A stretch of DNA of 64,000 bases from a virus: positions 1 through 64,000 of IMG/VR virus record IMGVR_UViG_3300031566_000017; one strand, given 5' to 3'. Positions 10,551 through 61,190 of this stretch are shown one piece after another. Below the pieces are notes generated by a model. That model was given only the letters and a program-made list of their open reading frames with translations. It was not told the origin of the DNA and made no database searches. The position numbers were made by a program, and so were the translations under genes. Each line of letters starts with the position of its first letter. Position 1 is the stretch's first letter.

Positions 10551-10636
10551 TGTATCCTCTCCTCTCTCTACTTGGCCTCTGCCTCATCGGCGCCGGGCGG
10601 CCAGTCCGGACGGACCGGGGTTGCCCCCGGTTTCGG
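10551..10636 (-). repeat. intergenic structured repeat, copy 1
   Basis: Shares order and sequence with 11262..11345 and 11862..11941: a conserved GCCGAAACCGG start, a CCGG-rich hairpin (ACCGGGG/CCCCGGT), then GTCCGGAC, and an AGAGAGGAG RBS. Each copy exactly fills the gap between two small genes. Confidence 0.65.
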
Positions 10637-10885
10637 CTATCTCTTCCAGATGGTCTCGCCGCATCGAGAGCAGTAGATGCTCTCAGTCTTGTGCTCCGCG
10701 TTTATGTCGCCCCAGACGATCTCGCCTGTGTCGGGGTTGATATACCCAGTTCTTTTGCCCACTAGCTGGCCCTCAACCGCTAGCTCTGACCCCGGTTCAC
10801 CACAGACCATACAGCCTAGACTTACCGCTTCTATCAGTTCATCGTTCGTCGGCCATTCACCCTGGTTTCCTTTGTCAGACATCAT
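10637..10885 (-). CDS. zinc-ribbon small protein
   Basis: 82 residues with CMVC near residue 25 and CSRC near residue 72, typical of a single zinc ribbon. ATG 10885 or 10882 after GGAGAG. Function unknown. Confidence 0.65.
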   Translation of the reverse strand: MMSDKGNQGEWPTNDELIEAVSLGCMVCGEPGSELAVEGQLVGKRTGYINPDTGEIVWGDINAEHKTESIYCSRCGETIWKR

Positions 10886-11261: not shown

Positions 11262-11345
11262 CGTTCTCTCCTCTCTTTGTGGCCTGCCATCTTCACAGCC
11301 CCGGTCAGCCAGTCCGGGACGACCGGCCCGAAGGCCGGTTTCGGC
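11262..11345 (-). repeat. intergenic structured repeat, copy 2
   Basis: Same architecture as copy 1 with a different hairpin loop (ACCGGCC/GGCCGGT). Hairpin arms differ between copies yet pair in each, the pattern expected of a conserved RNA structure. Confidence 0.6.
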
Positions 11346-11666
11346 TCAGTATTCGCTCGGGAAGAGCATAGTCGTCACCGATCTATCGGCCTCTGTGATT
11401 ATCCACAAACTCCCACCGTCAGCAAGTACATAGGAGGAGAACAGGCGGAGGTACTTGTCCAGGGAGAACTCGTTCTCCTGGGTATCCTCTTCCTCAAGGT
11501 CACCCCAGTCGCCACTCAGGTGCCGCGCTAGTGATGCTTGAACCTGCGCCGCGAACTGGTCATCCTCTGCCGCCCTCTCACATACGCCCGCCGTCATGAC
11601 TATCTGACCGGCCTCGAACTTCTGATCTTTTGCCCTTACCAGTTCCGCTACTATTCCTGTTGTCAT
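11346..11666 (-). CDS. conserved plasmid/phage protein of unknown function
   Basis: 106 residues. The C-terminal block (DWGDL, ENEFSLDKYLRLFSSY, WIITEADRS and TMLFPSEY) matches a family I recall as widespread on plasmids and phages without a known role. Full length. RBS GAGGGAG before ATG 11666. Confidence 0.8.
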   Translation of the reverse strand: MTTGIVAELVRAKDQKFEAGQIVMTAGVCERAAEDDQFAAQVQASLARHLSGDWGDLEEEDTQENEFSLDKYLRLFSSYVLADGGSLWIITEADRSVTTMLFPSEY

Positions 11667-11861: not shown

Positions 11862-11941
11862 CTCTCCCTCTCTACTTGGCCTGCCTCATCAGCGCCCGGC
11901 GGCCATTCCGGACGAACCGGGGAGTAACCCCGGTTATCGGC
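11862..11941 (-). repeat. intergenic structured repeat, copy 3
   Basis: Closest to copy 1 (shared CCGATAACCGGGG, GGCCGCCGGGC and AGAGAGGGAG). The stem-loop is ACCGGGG/CCCCGGT. Lies between the genes at 11676..11861 and 11942..12340. Confidence 0.65.
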
Positions 11942-12340
11942 TTAGAATTGAGGCTCTTCCATCTGGTCAAGCTGGCATTCCTTGCAGATGGTCGCTCCGC
12001 CCTCAAGCACATCCACCTGCTCAACAGGCTTAGCCTGACCGCACTCATCACAGCCCCACATCTTGGTAGCCTCGGCCTTTCGGAGCATCAGCTCAGTCTC
12101 GGCCTCAAAGGTCTCTACCGCCCTGCGCTCTTCCCTCTCTTGTGCCGCTATTGATGCCATCGTTCCCTTCCTCTTATCCCTAGCCACAAACCTGATCGCT
12201 TTGTCTATCGGTCGTTCGGTTGTCATTCTAGGATCTACTTGCCCAGTCATTTCGCCCCCCTTGAATCCCTGATGATCGACTACTCTAGGTTGCCTTGCAG
12301 CGACTCTTGCCTTTCTTAGCTGAGCCTTTGTCATCGTCAT
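11942..12340 (-). CDS. charged protein with C-terminal zinc pair motif
   Basis: 132 residues. CDEC and CKEC near the C-terminus suggest a zinc ribbon. Two starts each have a good RBS: ATG 12340 (GAGGGGGCGAA, overlapping the upstream stop) and ATG 12250 (GGGGGGCGAA, start MTGQ), so two forms may be made. Function unknown. Confidence 0.6.
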   Translation of the reverse strand: MTMTKAQLRKARVAARQPRVVDHQGFKGGEMTGQVDPRMTTERPIDKAIRFVARDKRKGTMASIAAQEREERRAVETFEAETELMLRKAEATKMWGCDECGQAKPVEQVDVLEGGATICKECQLDQMEEPQF

Positions 12341-14968: not shown

Positions 14969-16411
14969 ATGCGATGTCTCCTCTGGGCAGCCGTTTCGAG
15001 CAAACCGCAGGCTGACGAAACCAAGGACTCAATCCCCACGCAGATCTCCGCCGGCCGTGAGCTGATTGAGCAAAACGAAGGCTGGCACGAGGTCCGCGAT
15101 CCTCTTGTGATCCCCGGTCATTCCAGAAACTACATCTTCCTGGCCGACGCCGCCGTTGACATGCCTCCCTATTCCTCTCTAATGACCCTCGCCAGGGAAG
15201 GGCAAATCGACCTGCTGATCTGTAGGGGCCGGGACCGCCTGGGGCGCACCGACGCCCTGGTCGCCCAACTGGAAGAATATCTAGCCTCCTACAACGTGCA
15301 AATCCTCTCTATGTCCATGCCCACCAGAGTTCAGGAGCCCAAAGACTTCTCTAATCACCGGGACCGCGCAGGGCTTTGGATGCGTTCCATCGAGCGGGCC
15401 AAGGCGCAGGACGAAATCATGGAGTTGCGGGCCCGGCACGATCGGGGCATGACCCGGGAGGTTAAGTCTGGCCGGCACGTGGGCAAAACGCCCTATGGCT
15501 ACCGCAAGAACGGGCAGGTTCCGGAGGTCTACGAGCCAGAGGCGGCGGTAGTGCGGTTGATCTATCGTTGGTACCTGGAAGGGGAGTCTATGAGCGAGAT
15601 CGTGAGGAGACTACCCCTCTACGCCAGCGAACGGCATCCTACCTGGGTCACTCCGGTGAGGTACATCCTTCGGAACCCTTTCTATGCAGGGTTCACCGCC
15701 TGGAAGCGTCATGGCAAGCACAAGCGCAAGCCGCGTTCAGAATGGATCCTCGCCGACGGGCATCATGAAGCCTTAGTCAGCGTTGACGATTGGGAGCGAA
15801 CGCAGCGCGAGATGGGGGCCAGGAAGGGGCAGGGACCTCGGGCGCCGTACACAGTCTATGCCCTGAGCGGGTTGGTCCATTGCGGTCTGTGCGGAGGCCT
15901 GATGAAGATTGCCAGAAGCGGGGATGCCAGATACTACGCCTGTCTGCGTCATGACGCGCGGGTGAGCATGCGGCTAGAGATCGTGGAGGGGCACGTGGCG
16001 GCCTGGCTGCAGTACCGGTTAGAACGCCCGGAGATGGTCCGCTACGAAATCAAGGAGAACCCGAACCAGGAGATCGAGCAACTTCGCAAAGCCCTTGACC
16101 GGCACCGGAGCGCACTCGATCGGTGGAGACGGGACTATGAGGACGGTCTGCTAAGTCGCAGCGAATTCTACACCCACAAACTGCGGCTGGAGGAGGTTAG
16201 CGAAGTCACGGCCACGCGCCTGCAGGAAAAGGAAAAGGCGACGGTAGACCCCGAACGCCTCAAGGAAGACTGGAAGAACCTCGCCGCGGTAGATGACATC
16301 CTCGCCGCCTGGCACGACCCCGATCGTGTGGCGCAAATGAAGGCTCTCCTGCGCTCCCTTGGGATTCACATCACGATCACAGGACGTGAGATCACCCTTG
16401 CCCTCAAGTAG
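14969..16411 (+). CDS. int: large serine recombinase (integrase)
   Basis: 480 residues. The resolvase domain has the nucleophile Ser in AAVSSKPQ (residues 7-14) and the Arg motif CRGRDRLGRT near 76-86. A recombinase domain (GRHVGKTPYGYRKNG, then YILRNPFYAGF) and a zinc ribbon starting CGLCGG follow, then a coiled coil near 350-430. The second zinc pair is degenerate (CLRH in place of CxxC). It starts 5 bp after the repressor stop and is transcribed with it. Catalyses site-specific integration; attP was not identified. Confidence 0.93.
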   Translation: MRCLLWAAVSSKPQADETKDSIPTQISAGRELIEQNEGWHEVRDPLVIPGHSRNYIFLADAAVDMPPYSSLMTLAREGQIDLLICRGRDRLGRTDALVAQLEEYLASYNVQILSMSMPTRVQEPKDFSNHRDRAGLWMRSIERAKAQDEIMELRARHDRGMTREVKSGRHVGKTPYGYRKNGQVPEVYEPEAAVVRLIYRWYLEGESMSEIVRRLPLYASERHPTWVTPVRYILRNPFYAGFTAWKRHGKHKRKPRSEWILADGHHEALVSVDDWERTQREMGARKGQGPRAPYTVYALSGLVHCGLCGGLMKIARSGDARYYACLRHDARVSMRLEIVEGHVAAWLQYRLERPEMVRYEIKENPNQEIEQLRKALDRHRSALDRWRRDYEDGLLSRSEFYTHKLRLEEVSEVTATRLQEKEKATVDPERLKEDWKNLAAVDDILAAWHDPDRVAQMKALLRSLGIHITITGREITLALK

Positions 16412-38438: not shown

Positions 38439-39824
38439 CTATTCCGGGCACTGAGCCACGCAGAAGCACTCCTCGGGGTGGTAACTCTCCTCACAAGGAT
38501 CCGGGCTCTTAGGTCCACCAGGAACCGCGCACCTGACATCGTGGAACCGTGCCAACGTCCACGGCGCCCACGCGACGATTCGAGGCCTCATCTCTACAAT
38601 CTGCTTTACGCAGGTATGGTCCTGCTCCTCCCACGTCAGGAGCCTTCCGCCATCGGTATAGGCAAACCCGTCATGCTTGGAGGGGATCTTGCTCATATCC
38701 AGCATCTCACCATGCAGAGTCTTCACCCCGCCGATGCCGCCGGTGAGCAGGTAGATGTCCCCGCGGGTCGGACCCTTGGTCAACTCCCAATCGTATTGAA
38801 TGAGAGGGATCGTAAACCCGTCGATGCTGATTGCCCCATCCCCAAACATGCCGCCGTTCAGGGAGAGGCGGAACTGCCTGGCCTCGTAGCTCTGTATCGC
38901 TACCTCTTGATACTGAGCACCGGGGCAGACAGACCAGCACGTGAACGAATCCAACAGGCACTGCCGGAGGAAGCCGGGCAAGAGGATGATCATCTCGCCG
39001 ACCTGCATCTGACGCGCCGCCAGCGAAGGCGCCCACGAGATGTTTTGCTTGATGTGCCTGTAGACGGCCATCAGCACATCAACAAAGTTGAACCCGGCAC
39101 CTACCGCACCACCGTTCCAGGTGATGCCCGCTCCGCCAGCCATCGTGTTCTGATTCCAGTCGATGACGATACTGTCCATCGAGGAACAGGGCTTGCCGTT
39201 GGGATCGACATAGCCGTTGGTCACCAAAGACTCCAGGCCGTCAAACAGGCCAGGGGCCGCCGCTCCGGTGACGGTATATCGCTTCAGGTCCTGCAGAATG
39301 ACCTCAGTGGCGAAGCGCATCTCGTACTCGGTCTGGTTGGTTATCAGAGACCCATCCAGACGGTACATCGGCTGGCGTTCGCAGTATTTCATGAAGTCAT
39401 AGGTCACGTCCTGAACGTGGCCCTCTCTCCGCAAGCGCCCGTAGTCCTGGATGATGAAGTCACAGGTACCGAACTCGTAGGAGTTCGGGTCGGCGCACGG
39501 ATCCGCCAGATACCCGGCGGTGCACGCGCCTGCATACTGCTCCGGCCTCACGAAGTTGATGAAGGACCGTCTCTCGATGCAGACTTCGGTGAGGATCCAC
39601 CCCAGCCAGTCGAGGAACTTGTTGGCGCCCTCCAGGGAGAGCGACATCAGATCCTGGTTGCTACAGAGGTCGAACAACCCGCAACATCCGAAGATAGTCG
39701 CGTCGTCCCCTATCGTGAGGCGGCGGACCAGTTGATCGTTGGTCTTGAGCAACTGCCGGACCGCACTAGCGTTGGCCTCGCTGGTGTCTGCCAGGTGGGC
39801 CAATACTGATTCAAGTTCACTCAT
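38439..39824 (-). CDS. major capsid protein
   Basis: 461 residues. Placed directly after the protease/scaffold gene and overlapping its stop by 1 bp. Mixed alpha/beta pattern compatible with an HK97 fold; unusually rich in Cys (about 15). The C-terminus (CEESYHPEECFCVAQCPE) may form a metal- or disulphide-stabilised knot. No identification beyond position and size is claimed. Confidence 0.72.
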   Translation of the reverse strand: MSELESVLAHLADTSEANASAVRQLLKTNDQLVRRLTIGDDATIFGCCGLFDLCSNQDLMSLSLEGANKFLDWLGWILTEVCIERRSFINFVRPEQYAGACTAGYLADPCADPNSYEFGTCDFIIQDYGRLRREGHVQDVTYDFMKYCERQPMYRLDGSLITNQTEYEMRFATEVILQDLKRYTVTGAAAPGLFDGLESLVTNGYVDPNGKPCSSMDSIVIDWNQNTMAGGAGITWNGGAVGAGFNFVDVLMAVYRHIKQNISWAPSLAARQMQVGEMIILLPGFLRQCLLDSFTCWSVCPGAQYQEVAIQSYEARQFRLSLNGGMFGDGAISIDGFTIPLIQYDWELTKGPTRGDIYLLTGGIGGVKTLHGEMLDMSKIPSKHDGFAYTDGGRLLTWEEQDHTCVKQIVEMRPRIVAWAPWTLARFHDVRCAVPGGPKSPDPCEESYHPEECFCVAQCPE

Positions 39825-41203
39825 TATGCGCCTCCTTTGATCGCGGCTACGGTTTCCTCAGCCGTTTCCGCATAAGTCTTAGGGGCCGGTTCACCCTGCT
39901 CCCTACCCGGCGCACGGTATTTCACAGTGAGCTGCCGTTTGGCGGGCAAGTCCTTCATCCACTCGTCCTTCTTCTCGTCGTCGGTCCGCTCCAACTGATC
40001 GAGCCTGGTACGGATCGGCTCCAGCGCCTCCGTCTGGGTTGCGGTCAGTGTAGCCACCGCCTCTTCGAGCCTCTTGCCAAGCGCCTCCAGGCTCTCTACG
40101 ATGGGCACGAGAATCCCCTGGAAGGGTTCGGAACTCAGGAGTCCTTCGGCGAGCGCGGGCAGTGCTTCCTCATCGAGTACCACTTCTGCGGGCTCTTCCA
40201 CAGGCTCTTCTACCAACTCTTCTACGAGCACTACTTCTGGTGTCTCCGCGGGTGCCTCTTCGATTTCTCGCGTCACCATATCCTCATCCTTGACACGGTG
40301 CTTGACGTCATCGACCAAAGTACCGAGTTCCGCGATCCGCTCCTCGCTCAGTCCAAGCGCTTCTAGCGCCTTGGCGATTCTGCTGTCCATGCTAACCTCC
40401 TCTCTAATAACTGCCGTGAAGAGAGCCGCCGCATCTTCCTTCAGAATGAGCGACAGCTCGCTATGCTCCCCCTCGCGATATACGGGAATCCTTACCCCGC
40501 CGATCTCCGCCAGCTCAGGCGGGGCCGTGGGGTTGAATCCGATAGACGTGCCCCAAATCTCGGCGTTCTCCTCTAGGGCACGCGCCATATCCGCACCGAG
40601 AGGCGTCGATTCGTCTAGCAAGCCGGTGACGATGTAGGCCACCTCATCTCGAGCCAGGTAGTCACACTGACCCATGCGGAACGTAGGGAGGAGCTTCTCA
40701 TTGCTGATGTGGTAGAAGGTGACGTAGGGGTACTTTCCGCTATCCTCGGCACGCTGGATGAAGTTGTCGAACAAGGCCATACTGTCGATCTCGCCGACGC
40801 GGTTCAGAATCGCCGTGTTGGCGATCGCCACGAACCGGCACCTGCCGTCTGCCTGGCGCTCTACCGTAAGCCTCGTTTCGATGGGCACATGGTCTACCTT
40901 GATCTGTTGCCACTCACCCAAGATCACCGTATCTGTCGCTGAGTCGACGTCAAGCTTCGCGCGGTATAGCTTGCCCTCACTCGCGATGACCATGTAGAGC
41001 ACGCCATCGTCAAGGAAGAAATCCAGAAGCCACGCGTTCCTCAGCAGCTCATCGGTCGAATCCCATAGCTGGGCATATACCTGCGCTATCATGTCGCAGC
41101 CCGAGATCGCCCTTGCTTCCTCGTTTGACTCCTTGATCGAGGGCTCTAGCGCCTCCGCAAAGGCGGCGCTTATTCTTTCCCGCAACCTCTCCAAAGCATT
41201 CAT
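39824..41203 (-). CDS. capsid maturation protease with scaffold domain
   Basis: 459 residues from ATG 41203 (RBS AAGGAG). The middle (DSMALFDNFIQRAED, LARDEVAYIVTGLLDES, AEIWGTSIGFNP) resembles XkdF-like prohead serine proteases. The acidic region 275-400 (repeated VEEPVEEPAEV) is scaffold-like. In the same frame, 26 sense codons and one TGA upstream, lies the ChaB-like segment 41282..41374, so the true product may begin at 41374 by TGA read-through. Confidence 0.75.
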   Translation of the reverse strand: MNALERLRERISAAFAEALEPSIKESNEEARAISGCDMIAQVYAQLWDSTDELLRNAWLLDFFLDDGVLYMVIASEGKLYRAKLDVDSATDTVILGEWQQIKVDHVPIETRLTVERQADGRCRFVAIANTAILNRVGEIDSMALFDNFIQRAEDSGKYPYVTFYHISNEKLLPTFRMGQCDYLARDEVAYIVTGLLDESTPLGADMARALEENAEIWGTSIGFNPTAPPELAEIGGVRIPVYREGEHSELSLILKEDAAALFTAVIREEVSMDSRIAKALEALGLSEERIAELGTLVDDVKHRVKDEDMVTREIEEAPAETPEVVLVEELVEEPVEEPAEVVLDEEALPALAEGLLSSEPFQGILVPIVESLEALGKRLEEAVATLTATQTEALEPIRTRLDQLERTDDEKKDEWMKDLPAKRQLTVKYRAPGREQGEPAPKTYAETAEETVAAIKGGA

Positions 41204-41281: not shown

Positions 41282-41374
41282 TCAGGTGTCGTAGGCGCTA
41301 TTCCAGACCTTCGCCCACTGATCGGCTTTGTCATCGGGTACGTAGTCAGGTACGGTCTCTGGCGTATAGGGCAT
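41282..41374 (-). CDS. ChaB-like segment ending at an in-frame TGA
   Basis: 30 residues (MPYTPETVPDYVPDDKADQW, then AKVWNSAYDT). WNSAY is the core of ChaB-like segments that, as I recall, often start phage protease genes and are followed by C-x(n)-GG-x(n)-C-x(3)-AFA. Here the first Cys position is TGA (41282..41284), after which IEEGGSQDDCEASAFAQ continues in frame to the protease. Either a separate micro-gene, a nonsense mutation or recoded TGA. Confidence 0.6.
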   Translation of the reverse strand: MPYTPETVPDYVPDDKADQWAKVWNSAYDT

Positions 41375-41376
41375 AG

Positions 41377-41496
41377 CTACCTCGCGAACTTCGCCAGTAT
41401 CAGCATGCAGAAACCGGCCATGGCGAATGTGATCAACGCTATGGCCCAGCCGAGGATCATCCCCTGCACGCCCACGTTCATAAGAATCTCGGCCAT
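41377..41496 (-). CDS. 39-residue membrane peptide
   Basis: MAEILMNVGVQGMI, then a hydrophobic stretch LGWAIALITFAMAGFCMLIL. RBS GGGAGGGG. First gene after the terminator at 41526. Function unknown. Confidence 0.6.
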   Translation of the reverse strand: MAEILMNVGVQGMILGWAIALITFAMAGFCMLILAKFAR

Positions 41497-41525: not shown

Positions 41526-41563
41526 AAAAAAGCGCCGCCCGGGAAGCGACTCCCGAACGGCGC
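41526..41563 (-). terminator. strong rho-independent terminator
   Basis: 14-bp stem (two G-T pairs at the TT/GG positions and one at the loop), TCGC loop, six T on the minus strand. Ends the 0.85-kb noncoding transcription unit. Confidence 0.92.
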
Positions 41564-41575
41564 AATGGCTCACGC

Positions 41576-41589
41576 TTTACATGGGTAAA
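41576..41589. promoter_or_regulatory. TTTACGCGTGTAAA-type site 5
   Basis: TTTACATGGGTAAA, arms conserved, centre changed. It lies 13 bp from the terminator stem. Confidence 0.45.
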
Positions 41590-41612
41590 CTATTCAGTGT
41601 TAAACTACTCAG

Positions 41613-41643
41613 CGTATACGTTTGGTAGTCAATCGTATACGTT
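41613..41643. repeat. paired CGTATACGTT repeats, 21 bp apart
   Basis: Two identical 10-mers with a palindromic CGTATACG core, at 41613 and 41634. A 21-bp spacing places both on the same helix face, suggesting a cooperative binding site near the end of the ncRNA. Confidence 0.4.
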
Positions 41644-42065
41644 CTGTATGCAGAAAGAGCCGGGGATCGCTCCCTGGCTCATCGGCTCGTTGGGCACCTT
41701 GTCGGGCGGTCCGCCGGTGCCCTTACTTTCTCATGCCGGGGTACTTGCCGCCTCCCGGCGCTATATCATGTGGTAAGGGACAGTGGGAATAGTCCAGGCC
41801 CGTCACGCCGTCGATAGCCTTCCGGCTGTTTGTCGGCAGCTTCCCAATCCGCAGCCGGTGGGCGGATAGAACGATAGCGACAGGTTCCCCGGACCAGAGG
41901 CCCCTGATAGGCTCAGGGGCAAAAGCCAGGGGTGGGCAGGATTACTCCCGTCACCCTCCACCAGCGGGCTGTTTGCGGCACAGCCAGCGAAGCCAGAGAC
42001 AAGCCCCTCGGGGCTGTCGGCCCGGCCATACTATGTGCCGGGGGAGCTAGGCAGCGCCCCGCTGC

Positions 42066-42266
42066 CTACGATTTCTCTAAACACACACCAGCTAAATCTT
42101 CTAAGCCCAATTCTACAGCCTGTTTCTTGGCCCATTCCAAGTCCTGTTCTGTCGCCTTCTGGCAGCTAATCAAGGCTACCTGCCAAGGGATTCATTCGTC
42201 CCCGTAATGTTCATGGGCATAGAGAATGATTTGGCGTAGTCTACAATCTTCTATTCTGTCGCACAT
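42066..42266 (-). pseudogene. small frame interrupted by in-frame TGA
   Basis: ATG 42266 reads MCDRIEDCRLRQIILYAHEH then YGDE, TGA (42192..42194), then 41 natural-looking in-frame codons (IPWQVALISCQKATEQDLEW and on) to TAG 42066. A 6-bp stem (TGGCAG/CTGCCA) starts about 7 nt after the TGA. Broken gene or recoded stop. Confidence 0.45.
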
Positions 42267-42378
42267 GGTCTTCCACCATTTCTGAACTTTAGTAAAAGTA
42301 GCGCCTCTGTCGCTAGGCTGTCAAGCGCACGGCATGCAAAGCCGACTTTCGCGAACAGAGGAGCAACGTCTACTTAGT

Positions 42379-42407
42379 ATTATACCACATTTTCTGAGAA
42401 CGTGCAA
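42379..42407 (-). promoter_or_regulatory. promoter of the ncRNA unit
   Basis: -35 TTGCAC (42402..42407), 17-bp spacer, -10 TATAAT (42379..42384) with TGG in front (extended -10). A second possible start, TTGACA-N18-TACTTT, lies at 42295..42324. Confidence 0.8.
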
Positions 42408-42422
42408 GCTGATTGAGAGGAT

Positions 42423-42890
42423 TCAGCCGATAGGCGTTCTTGGCGGAAGAGGCAGCGCCTCCCTCAATGCTTCTTCCCGCGCTTCTTCTTGCTTCGCCTC
42501 GCTGACCGCCTGTCTCACTGCATCGATAAGACTGTCCGCCAAGCCACAATTATCGTCCATCGATACGAACCATTTCCGCTCATAGCCGAAATCCTCGGGT
42601 ATGTCGTAGTGCAGCCTACAGCGAGAATCCGTGTGGTGCTCAATTGCCCTTATAGCTGTACCGTCCTGAATCAGCTTCATCCGGCGTTGGGGCGGTTGCC
42701 CTTCTATCCACTTCTCCACGGTGACATCCCAATCAACCGGTCTTCGCTCGTGGTTTCTCACGGCGGCGATGATGGGTTCTGCGCCGAAGAGGTCTACTAG
42801 CAGCCGAATGTACTCTAAGGCAGGCAACGCCCCCGCATCGACCATCAGTTCCCCTAGGTCCCCGAAAGGAATGGGCTTGCGTTTGGTCAT
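42423..42890 (-). CDS. unrecognised accessory protein
   Basis: 155 residues, alpha/beta with a charged helical C-terminus (AVRQAVSEAKQEEAREEAL). Own promoter motif D 19 bp upstream and GGGGGGAG RBS. It ends 16 bp before the -35 box of the ncRNA promoter. An independently expressed cargo gene by context. Confidence 0.65.
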   Translation of the reverse strand: MTKRKPIPFGDLGELMVDAGALPALEYIRLLVDLFGAEPIIAAVRNHERRPVDWDVTVEKWIEGQPPQRRMKLIQDGTAIRAIEHHTDSRCRLHYDIPEDFGYERKWFVSMDDNCGLADSLIDAVRQAVSEAKQEEAREEALREALPLPPRTPIG

Positions 42891-43197: not shown

Positions 43198-43408
43198 TGT
43201 ACCTCCATGAAACGCCGTCATAATGCGGCGGTCCGAACGCTATCTTCCGCCCTGCGGGGTAGAAACGCCGCCATAGAGAGCGGGTACCAGGAGTGCCCCT
43301 TAGCTGCCTACCGCAACGCCTACACTTGCCGTTCAGCGCCGCTGCCTCATAGTCGATCTCAAAGTCATGAACCTTCCTGATCCAGCACTTCCATATTCTG
43401 TGAAACAT
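43178..43408 (-). CDS. small zinc-finger-like basic protein
   Basis: 76 residues, Arg/Lys-rich, with CRRCGRQL but no obvious second pair. Overlaps both neighbours. Function unknown. Confidence 0.5.
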   Translation of the reverse strand: MFHRIWKCWIRKVHDFEIDYEAAALNGKCRRCGRQLRGTPGTRSLWRRFYPAGRKIAFGPPHYDGVSWRYNARISR

Positions 43409-43607
43409 CGGCCAATGCCTCCTCTAATTCTTGAACGGACACCTCTACCAGCCGTGTCCCACGCTCAGCCGAACGACGCCGGTCCTTGTCGCAGACCTCG
43501 AGCTTTACTACGCCGTCCTTGACCACGCGCCGCCCGAGCTTCACGCCGTCTACGATCACAAACCCCCTCTCATCTACGGATACGGCACGCGCCCTAGATC
43601 GTATCAT
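43365..43607 (-). CDS. unrecognised small protein
   Basis: 80 residues: beta-hairpin-rich middle (GFVIVDGVKLGRRVVKDGVV) and acidic C-terminal helix. Overlaps the upstream stop by 4 bp. Function unknown. Confidence 0.6.
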   Translation of the reverse strand: MIRSRARAVSVDERGFVIVDGVKLGRRVVKDGVVKLEVCDKDRRRSAERGTRLVEVSVQELEEALADVSQNMEVLDQEGS

Positions 43608-56200: not shown

Positions 56201-56863
56201 TCATAGTTGCATCTCTACTTGCTCGGGCTGCATCACGAATAGCGGGGGCTGCGTGTTCCTCACCCGCTCCCTAGCCCGCTCTGCCACGTCGGGGTCTATC
56301 TCGAAGGCTAGGTAGTGACGGCCCAGCATCTTGCAGACAGCGGGGACAACGCCGTGCCCAGTGAACGGGTCAACCACAACTGCATCAATCTTCGTGAACG
56401 CATCTACCCACCGCTCAATAACCGCAGGGTTCTTATTCCATTTGAAGCCATTTGCTGGCTTCCTGCCGTCAATGAATGTGTCTGGTATGCGCTTTATCGG
56501 GAACCCCTTGCCCTTGCGAAACCAAAGGCACGATGTCGTCCACGTGAATAGATTGTACCCAATCAACTTATTCGCTTTCGCTGGCACCGTATAATTGAGC
56601 TGCCATGTCAACGACTCACCCATGGCACGCTGTACATCAAACGGCACAGGCCCACCGTACCATGCCAAGCACGCCCTATCATCCTTGAGCACCCTCGCCG
56701 CCGTCTCTGCCAGCCACCGATAGTCCTCAATCCTGTCATACACGGGGTCAGTAAAGATCAGGTCCACGCTCTCATCTGGTATCGCCGGGGCAAGCTCCTT
56801 AGCGTCACCCGTGATGATGGTGCAGCAATCGTATGGCCCTATCGAGCGACCACAGCCTGTCAT
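56201..56863 (-). CDS. DNA methyltransferase paralogue with DPVY motif
   Basis: 220 residues. Motif IV reads DPVY (39-42) instead of the usual DPPY; the SAM motif DPFTGHG is at 165-171. N- and C-termini match 650..1411. The Pro-to-Val change in motif IV could lower activity or alter the target. Inserted between portal and terminase. Confidence 0.82.
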   Translation of the reverse strand: MTGCGRSIGPYDCCTIITGDAKELAPAIPDESVDLIFTDPVYDRIEDYRWLAETAARVLKDDRACLAWYGGPVPFDVQRAMGESLTWQLNYTVPAKANKLIGYNLFTWTTSCLWFRKGKGFPIKRIPDTFIDGRKPANGFKWNKNPAVIERWVDAFTKIDAVVVDPFTGHGVVPAVCKMLGRHYLAFEIDPDVAERARERVRNTQPPLFVMQPEQVEMQL

Positions 56864-58251
56864 CCCGCCGCTCCCCTGGCCCAGACATAAGGACTCCGGG
56901 TCAATACGTTGTGCCCTCCACTACTGGCATCCATAATGTCATCGTGGCCGAACTGCGGCTGGTTGTGCATATGCGTCAGCCAGGCCTCATTCCAAGGGCC
57001 CGCCAGTAGTTTGACGTTGCCGGCAAACGCTTGGCTGCTCAATGGCTTGGCACGAACCACTTTGTCTCCCTGCGGCCGTATGGGTGCGGCATCATACCCG
57101 GCCAGCATCTTCATAATGCGGGCGCTGTCGCGTTTGCCCGAGGCCCCGGGTTCCTGTTCCCAGCGGACCATGTAACGCGCCCCCGTCTCCTGTGCCCTTT
57201 GAAAGTCCTGAGATGCTGTATTCACCAGAAGCCGATCCACCTCTGCGGGGCCGTCCGTGACTTCGATACAGTCCTCAACGATGTATAGCCCCTCTGTCTG
57301 TCTCTGCAAGACGCCAGCGGTCCGGTCGGGATCGGCCTTCTTCATTTCTTTCTTCGTGGCCGCCAAGTCCCAGAACCTGCACATCTTGCCGCCTCGAGGA
57401 GCAGCTGGGATGATCTCGAACCACCCCCTGTTGAATAACAGCCCAGCCTCCGGCCTGATCTTCCAGTTGCCCTCCAAAAGCCGCTCCCTGTCAATCGTAG
57501 GGAGGGCCATCAGGTTTGCGAGGTAGCCGGGGTCTCTCTCCAGCAGAATCTTATTGTCACGAACGCTCGCCGGAATGAAGGTGACCGATTTGGGCTGTAT
57601 GCCTTCCACTGCGCGGAACCGTTCTGCCAACTCCTCCCGCGTGTCTCCCCAAACCAGCTCATCGCCGCTTCTCACAAACCACCTAGTATGCCCTGCCCTA
57701 TCCTGTCTCGCGTACCCGCTGTCTTGGTCGATCCACCACGACAAGAAACCCGCGAGCCAGGAGTCCGGGTCTGGGTTGCAGGTTGCGCGCACGTATGGCT
57801 TGACCCCGCACATGCTCCGGTTCCTCGATAGCATGAAGAAGAACTGCCCAGCGGAGAATTGCTCAGCCTGGTCGAAGCCAATCAAGGGGATCTGTGCTCC
57901 CTGATGTCTGTACTTGTCATTCTCATATTGCATGTATGCGAATCTCACTCGGGCACCCGATGGGAAGCGCCATTCTAACCTCATCGCTCTCTGCTGGGCA
58001 CCTAAGAGCGTATACAGTCTGGCGCTCTCGTCCCACATGCCGCCTTCCTGCATGATCTGCGGGTAGGTCTGGCGGAAGATGACCGCGCCGAAATCCGGGT
58101 TGTCGATGTGGAATATGGGCTCCAGCAGCAGGGCGTAGGTCTTGCCGCCGCCCGCCGCGCCCCCGTAGAACGTGATGTCGGCACTCGACCTTAGAAAGGC
58201 CATCTGTGGGCCTGGCTGCGACTTGATCATCGTGTCGTCCATAGCGCTCAT
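56860..58251 (-). CDS. terL: terminase large subunit
   Basis: 463 residues. Walker A GGAAGGGKT (30-38), Walker B-like PLIGFDQAEQ, and RNase-H-type nuclease with FWDLAAT and HDDIMDASSGG acidic residues. Packages DNA into the prohead with ATP and makes the terminal cuts. Confidence 0.95.
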   Translation of the reverse strand: MSAMDDTMIKSQPGPQMAFLRSSADITFYGGAAGGGKTYALLLEPIFHIDNPDFGAVIFRQTYPQIMQEGGMWDESARLYTLLGAQQRAMRLEWRFPSGARVRFAYMQYENDKYRHQGAQIPLIGFDQAEQFSAGQFFFMLSRNRSMCGVKPYVRATCNPDPDSWLAGFLSWWIDQDSGYARQDRAGHTRWFVRSGDELVWGDTREELAERFRAVEGIQPKSVTFIPASVRDNKILLERDPGYLANLMALPTIDRERLLEGNWKIRPEAGLLFNRGWFEIIPAAPRGGKMCRFWDLAATKKEMKKADPDRTAGVLQRQTEGLYIVEDCIEVTDGPAEVDRLLVNTASQDFQRAQETGARYMVRWEQEPGASGKRDSARIMKMLAGYDAAPIRPQGDKVVRAKPLSSQAFAGNVKLLAGPWNEAWLTHMHNQPQFGHDDIMDASSGGHNVLTRSPYVWARGAAG

Positions 58252-58811: not shown

Positions 58812-58826
58812 GCTGGTTCCTAGTTT

Positions 58827-59056
58827 GCCCTGCCATGCCGTGCCTTACCGCGCCCCGCCCCGCCCAACCCAGCCGGGCCAAGCCACGAATCTTATGATCG
58901 CCAGACTGGAACCCTGCCTCGCCTCGCCCCGCCGCGCCTGGGCGGGCCTCGCCGTGGGCGATGATTCCTACTCCCTGCCTTGCCATGCCCGGCCGCGCCA
59001 GGCCGTGCCCGTGCTGGCCGCGCCGTGCCCCGCCGCGCCTAGCCTCGCCACGCCTA
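58827..59056. repeat. phased GCCNN pentanucleotide array
   Basis: GCC recurs every 5 bp in three blocks: 58827-58886 (12 units, two ACC), 58916-58955 (8 units) and 58977-59056 (16 units), while the other two bases vary. Fills the gap just upstream of terS. No coding or CRISPR structure. Confidence 0.85.
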
Positions 59057-59635
59057 GACTAGCTCAACCGATTCAACTCGGAATCGCCCGAACCGTGGCC
59101 GCCAGTCACCGATGCCAACGACCTCGCCAGCAACTTTGACCCATCGCCCTACGTCCTCTTCGTTGACTAGGTCCGCATCGAAGGCGACGTCAAAGCTGGC
59201 TGCCCACTCACGGAAGATAGGACGTGTACGCATGACTGCGTTAGCCTGGACCTTGACCTTTACGCGAAGACGGAAACGCTCATCTGCCCATAGCTTGTCG
59301 ATGTCCGTCGGGCCCTCATATTCCAGCAGGGCATTGCCCGGGAGAAACATCGCGGCTTCAGCTTGCTTGCCCATCTTCTCCTTGCGCGCCGCCCCACCCT
59401 TGCCGGATAGTGCCGCCTCCAGGTTCTCTGCCGGGATACACGGTCTGCCCTCATCAAGGTATAGACCGCCGTGCCATTCTAGGCGGGCTAGTTCCTCGTG
59501 GTCCGCGTCCACCTTCTTCCGCTTGGATGAAACCTCCTTCATCTTGCGACTGATTGAATCTAGCGGATCCGCTAGCCTTCCGTTGTGCATAACCAGGGGT
59601 GACTCTCCGATAATCCGAAACCGCAACTTCTTCAT
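59054..59635 (-). CDS. conserved-looking phage protein upstream of terminase
   Basis: 193 residues starting KKLRFRIIGESPLVMHNG. This N-terminal pattern and length recall a phage family of unknown function. RBS AAGGGAG. The stop lies at the end of the GCCNN array. Confidence 0.7.
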   Translation of the reverse strand: MKKLRFRIIGESPLVMHNGRLADPLDSISRKMKEVSSKRKKVDADHEELARLEWHGGLYLDEGRPCIPAENLEAALSGKGGAARKEKMGKQAEAAMFLPGNALLEYEGPTDIDKLWADERFRLRVKVKVQANAVMRTRPIFREWAASFDVAFDADLVNEEDVGRWVKVAGEVVGIGDWRPRFGRFRVESVELV

Positions 59636-61160: not shown

Positions 61161-61190
61161 ATTATAGCACAAACGAACCCCTTTAGTCAA
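61161..61190 (-). promoter_or_regulatory. extended -10 promoter
   Basis: -35 TTGACT (61185..61190), 18-bp spacer, -10 TATAAT (61161..61166) with TGC in front. Very short leader to ATG 61149. Confidence 0.78.

Follow-up and report, generated by a model that had tools for sequence, protein, structure and literature searches.

No function is known for the phage RNAs GOLLD and ROOL, which often occur near tRNA islands; the 3′ region of GOLLD is universally conserved, and ROOL is frequently found in proximity to tRNAs (PMC12286853). For both classes such proximity is frequent, not obligatory. Here we compare them with a unit of about 0.85 kb in a phage window, the 64,000-nt stretch of DNA analysed (positions 1 to 64,000 of the 72.9-kb IMG/VR record IMGVR_UViG_3300031566_000017). 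Like GOLLD, the unit is phage-borne, measures about 850 nt and has many helices, which in the phage unit are predicted ones; unlike GOLLD, it has no model match and no tRNA island, and its body is without homologue. It resembles ROOL as a putative large structured RNA carried by a phage, and differs from it in lacking a covariance-model match and a tRNA island. A third relationship, to a DUF3800-VIII RNA of a Bacillota genome, is confined to the 5′ hairpin. The RNA reading of the unit is the best supported: most likely, this self-contained 0.85-kb gene makes a large folded RNA rather than a protein. The fuller description, in which this RNA gene is accessory to the phage, has no assigned class and carries a modular hairpin at its 5′ end, stands in our judgement at an even balance.

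Setting and layout of the unit

The minus strand carries nearly all genes of the phage window. Gene E (42423-42890), whose 155-aa product has no assigned family, flanks the unit on one side, and a small membrane-protein-like ORF (about 41380-41496) on the other. Genes 39824-41203 and 38439-39824, downstream of the unit, are conserved in related phages and are probably head genes. Genes for the terminase large subunit (56860-58251) and a large serine recombinase (14969-16411) are identified with certainty. The first-pass annotation had placed the unit beside the head genes, which is reasonable; for the conserved 461-aa neighbour there was neither a family match nor a confident predicted fold, and a capsid protein call for it was rejected because the fold was too uncertain. 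A 30-codon ORF on the minus strand (41282-41374, MPYTPETV...) resembles the N-terminus of a fused, longer version of gene 39824-41203 in contigs L006 and L013; it seems that the fused gene was split in this phage or that two genes were joined in L006 and L013. The features of the unit, in the direction of the expected transcript, are as follows.

42379-42407, minus strand: extended −10 promoter, TTGCAC-N17-TATAAT with TGG before the −10 box, TGGTATAAT (read from the sequence)
Near 42371-42373, minus strand: expected transcription start
42291-42374, minus strand: predicted 5′-terminal hairpin with an outer stem of about 20 bp, beginning at the expected first transcript base (inverted repeat I1; pair probability 0.84-0.96)
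42300-42366, minus strand: conserved core of the 5′ hairpin (67 nt), homologous to G034:C1:226928-226997 (blastn and covariance model R1)
42066-42266, minus strand: ORF-like stretch of low GC, MCDRIEDC...EKS, with one in-frame TGA at 42193-42195 (not supported as coding)
41570-42068, minus strand: GC-rich, strongly folded 3′ half (z −4.9/−5.3, lowest of 72 windows)
42048-42068, 42021-42042, 41998-42018 and 41964-41988, minus strand: hairpins of the 3′ half (predicted fold)
41770-41961, minus strand: central domain, with stems 41887-41931 and 41802-41881 inside (pair probabilities 0.84-0.98)
41934-41961 with 41770-41801, minus strand: two-part 25-bp long-range helix closing the central domain (pair probabilities 0.84-0.98)
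41735-41759, 41692-41722 and 41657-41680, minus strand: hairpins of the 3′ half (predicted fold)
41613-41641, minus strand: hairpin with two CGTATACG palindromes (repeat D3/I2; pair probability 0.98)
41526-41563, minus strand: intrinsic terminator, 14-bp stem (10 GC), 4-nt loop and T6 (stem 41563-41532 plus tail; terminator scan and folding)

Both boundary elements that had been described earlier, an extended −10 promoter and a near-perfect 14-bp terminator, were seen again at these positions. The −10 box is perfect and extended, and since the −35 box has only three of six matches, a simple promoter scanner omits the site. The terminator is the sole hairpin of such strength with a T run in the 64 kb, on either strand. 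The two elements are about 0.8 kb apart, and the expected transcript measures about 847 nt. We infer that transcription of an RNA about 850 nt long would begin near 42372, driven by a sigma-70-type extended −10 promoter, and stop at the terminator, at about 41526.

Folding of the predicted transcript

Folding is concentrated in the 3′ half. The 497-nt segment 41570-42066 gave z-scores of −4.9 and −5.3 against dinucleotide shuffles, and it and an overlapping window were the two most stable of 72 sampled 497-nt genome windows, the next reaching −4.0. At the 150-nt scale, some coding windows are equally stable. Both strands of the 3′ half have similar folding energies, so that folding energy alone neither proves an RNA nor separates an RNA from a DNA function. 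Single-sequence folding of the unit predicts at least ten helices with a mean pair probability above 0.85, where at least six strong stem-loops had been noted from the letters. The autonomous unit, the unsupported reading frames and the folded 3′ half are consistent with a structured noncoding RNA. The 5′ half, 314 nt in length (z −1.35), is not unusually folded.

A 5′ hairpin module shared with a DUF3800-VIII RNA

A search of 399 genomes of one phylum with the unit returned a single credible match, in G034 (Bacillota). This blastn match scores 48.2 bits, with 79% identity over 63 columns, at a single locus; its E value is 8e-6 within G034 and about 0.003 across the 399 genomes, and the best of 200 trials with shuffled queries (0.65 Mb of loci) reached 40 bits. 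The two hairpins match arm to arm, with 14 of 14 pairs kept. One pair is changed on both sides, from U-G to A-U, which in two sequences is no proof of covariation; most of the other differences fall in the loop or in the joining segment on the 3′ side. A CCUCUGU/ACAGAGG stem, GCGAAAGUCGGC, GCCG and GCCUAGC are present in both the unit and G034, the only two known members.

The covariance model R1 was built from the phage and G034 sequences that it matches, and its scores on them are therefore not independent evidence. The setting of the G034 module is independent evidence for the 5′ homology: it is intergenic, follows promoter-like TATAAT sites and directly precedes a DUF3800-VIII RNA (RF03075, 58.5 bits) on the same strand. 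Module and RNA stand tail to tail with a DUF3800 gene, with tRNA genes and, by reading, an apparent serine recombinase end nearby. This G034 locus (L061 4860-4998), where the DUF3800-VIII RNA carries an added hairpin domain at its 5′ end, is perhaps a decayed integrated element.

The likeness to the G034 RNA thus comprises the hairpin module and the promoter-like sites before it, whereas the 64-nt DUF3800-VIII hairpin that comes after the module in G034 and the DUF3800 gene beside it are both missing from the phage unit, which is several times longer than the G034 RNA gene. The unit gave no RF03075 match at E up to 10, and no PF12686 (DUF3800) match was found in the phage record and ten related records. 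The 5′ module is absent from ten other DUF3800-VIII loci in the same genomes, which argues for an exchangeable RNA module, joined as an extra 5′ domain to the RNA in G034 and to an unrelated body in the phage. No relative was found by blastn of the 5′ module in INPHARED or of the G034 copy in INPHARED and PLSDB, and an R1 scan of 396 genomes of G013's phylum (taken from a Sphingobacteriaceae locus) gave no match. A weak R1 match in G180 lies within a gene and antisense to it, and was set aside as chance.

Absence of the unit from related phages

The 38439-39824 protein has relatives (40-57% identity) on twelve IMG/VR contigs, and neither the unit nor the ORF at 42066-42266 is present near the homologue in any of them; 349 genomes of G034's phylum contained no relatives of this protein. 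DNA and protein searches of ten full related records found no match to the unit or the ORF beyond chance level. The cargo site, bounded by gene 39824-41203 and the homologue of ORF 43365-43607, holds an epimerase-like gene and others in L010, a relative of 45707-46438 in L013 and only about 120 bp in L006. Across L006-L016 it contains other cargo or almost nothing, indicating fast turnover and making the unit optional. No relative of the unit was found by blastn in INPHARED and PLSDB, and its body, about 750 of the 850 nt, has no homologue in the related phages, INPHARED, PLSDB or the 399 genomes. IMG/VR contains exact matches of 16 to 17 nt to the body, which were rejected because they occur in unrelated sequence with scores near shuffle level, as was a body match in G200 that lies within a reading frame and is attributed to chance.

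Coding potential

Coding potential was assessed by codon usage trained on this phage's genes, against 300 dinucleotide shuffles. No frame of either strand, in either half of the unit, exceeded the shuffles; the best p, about 0.1, was reached at three places, a weak coding signal rather than none. The neighbouring small ORFs D, E, G and I gave p = 0 in 300 shuffles, and against these values the first-pass statement that no long reading frame is supported was upheld. The neighbouring small ORF F reached only p = 0.10, showing that the power of the test is limited for short ORFs.

These results bear on an alternative that we consider unlikely, though serious: the unit would be cargo coding for a small protein, whether intact or decayed, and ending in a structured tail. 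The 66-codon frame 42266-42066 would then be carried by an mRNA from the promoter, its TGA being a nonsense mutation (read-through is less likely), and the remainder would be a 3′ UTR or remnants of other broken genes. In favour of this, the frame is soluble-protein-like both before and after the TGA, starts at an ATG with a GGTGGA-type ribosome site before it, and has a coding-like GC content by codon position of 54/34/49%; the stretches 41914-41789 and 41703-41632 are weakly coding-like in the codon-usage test, and turnover at the cargo locus is quick. Yet the frame does not clearly rise above shuffles, its product has a single-sequence predicted fold of low confidence, and the ORF has no homologue in any search made, Pfam, PHROG, tblastn and PDB yielding no relative of any frame of the unit that was tried. 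TGA is the usual stop in this phage, ending 22 of 35 genes, so genome-wide recoding is ruled out. A nonsense mutation is the likeliest account of the codon at 42193-42195. A readable protein at 42266-42066 is not supported, and the small-protein account leaves the strong fold of the 3′ half unexplained. A small hairpin follows the TGA. A glycosyltransferase pseudogene, proposed from two collinear short L023 matches, was also rejected, its total score lying below the best shuffles and no Pfam match being found.

Promoter and terminator as separate elements

It is improbable that the promoter and terminator do not belong to one unit, the terminator instead ending an upstream cargo operon, the promoter serving as a minor internal start and the intervening sequence being spacer left by cargo exchange. 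Gene E ends just upstream, and a terminator would be expected after it; moreover, the window contains two TGNTATAAT sites, at 42387 and 61169, both on the minus strand, against about 0.8 expected by our own estimate from base composition, so that the motif alone is not beyond chance and it is the position of the promoter that counts. Against this reading, the 5′ hairpin begins where transcription is expected to start, and the G034 relative likewise follows promoter-like sites. The terminator lies 860 bp beyond gene E, and the folding of the 3′ half would be unexpected for a spacer.

Comparison with large RNA families

The Rfam covariance-model check for GOLLD, ROOL, OLE and HEARO that had been suggested was run with cmscan and Rfam 15 (4 kb at E up to 1; 0.9 kb at E up to 10), and neither these families nor any other credible one was matched, in agreement with the earlier remark that no hallmark of a known class is present. 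MDR-NUDIX and FMN matches to the leader, at E 7-9, were dismissed as chance. ARAGORN found no tRNA in the window or the remaining 9 kb of the record. With no Rfam match and no tRNA, the proposed likeness to GOLLD and ROOL is one of size only, and kinship with them is not supported. A divergent member of GOLLD, ROOL, OLE or HEARO, to which size and phage setting point, is highly improbable in view of the empty covariance-model search at E up to 10 and the lack of a tRNA throughout the 72.9-kb record.

Proposed role

For the RNA gene, the preferred reading, we propose that the compact 5′ hairpin module would lead the RNA and most likely shield its 5′ end or bind a partner protein. The GC-rich 3′ half would be the functional body, a multi-hairpin domain around the long central helix, most likely scaffolding a partner, protein or RNA, in host takeover or conflict with other elements, the usual role of phage cargo genes. 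Tentatively, and with more doubt than conviction, the unit may represent a new class of large structured phage cargo RNA, combining a mobile 5′ module shared with DUF3800 RNAs and a class-defining 500-nt body. To our knowledge, new classes of large structured phage RNA are rare, and we know of no function for DUF3800 RNAs. If the unit is real, large structured phage RNAs can occur away from tRNA islands as exchangeable cargo, DUF3800 RNAs gain a link to phages, and the 67-nt 5′ module common to the phage unit and a DUF3800-associated RNA can be searched for and tested by itself. Only this module offers a firm lead for further work.

Other elements in the window

Phage VIPR systems are reported to combine a Vipr protein with a vrRNA array (preprint PMC13142463). 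The same layout is seen in a 193-aa ORF (59054-59635) ending in GIGDWRPRFGRF that lies directly upstream of (GGY NN) repeat arrays on the minus strand (58825-59055; runs of 8, 7, 6 and 12 units). The ORF is RAMP-like by eye and gave no Pfam or PADLOC match. The second TGNTATAAT site (61161-61169, minus strand) is located upstream of genes leading to this VIPR-like locus. A gathering-threshold Rfam scan of the window returned hammerheads only. Three type II hammerhead ribozymes are encoded on the minus strand at 10573-10638, 11278-11346 and 11875-11942, scoring 39.8, 35.3 and 45.4 bits, respectively, relative to a gathering score of 37; the middle one is under the cut-off and its core is seemingly altered. 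All three fall in intergenic gaps of a single operon of consecutive small genes.
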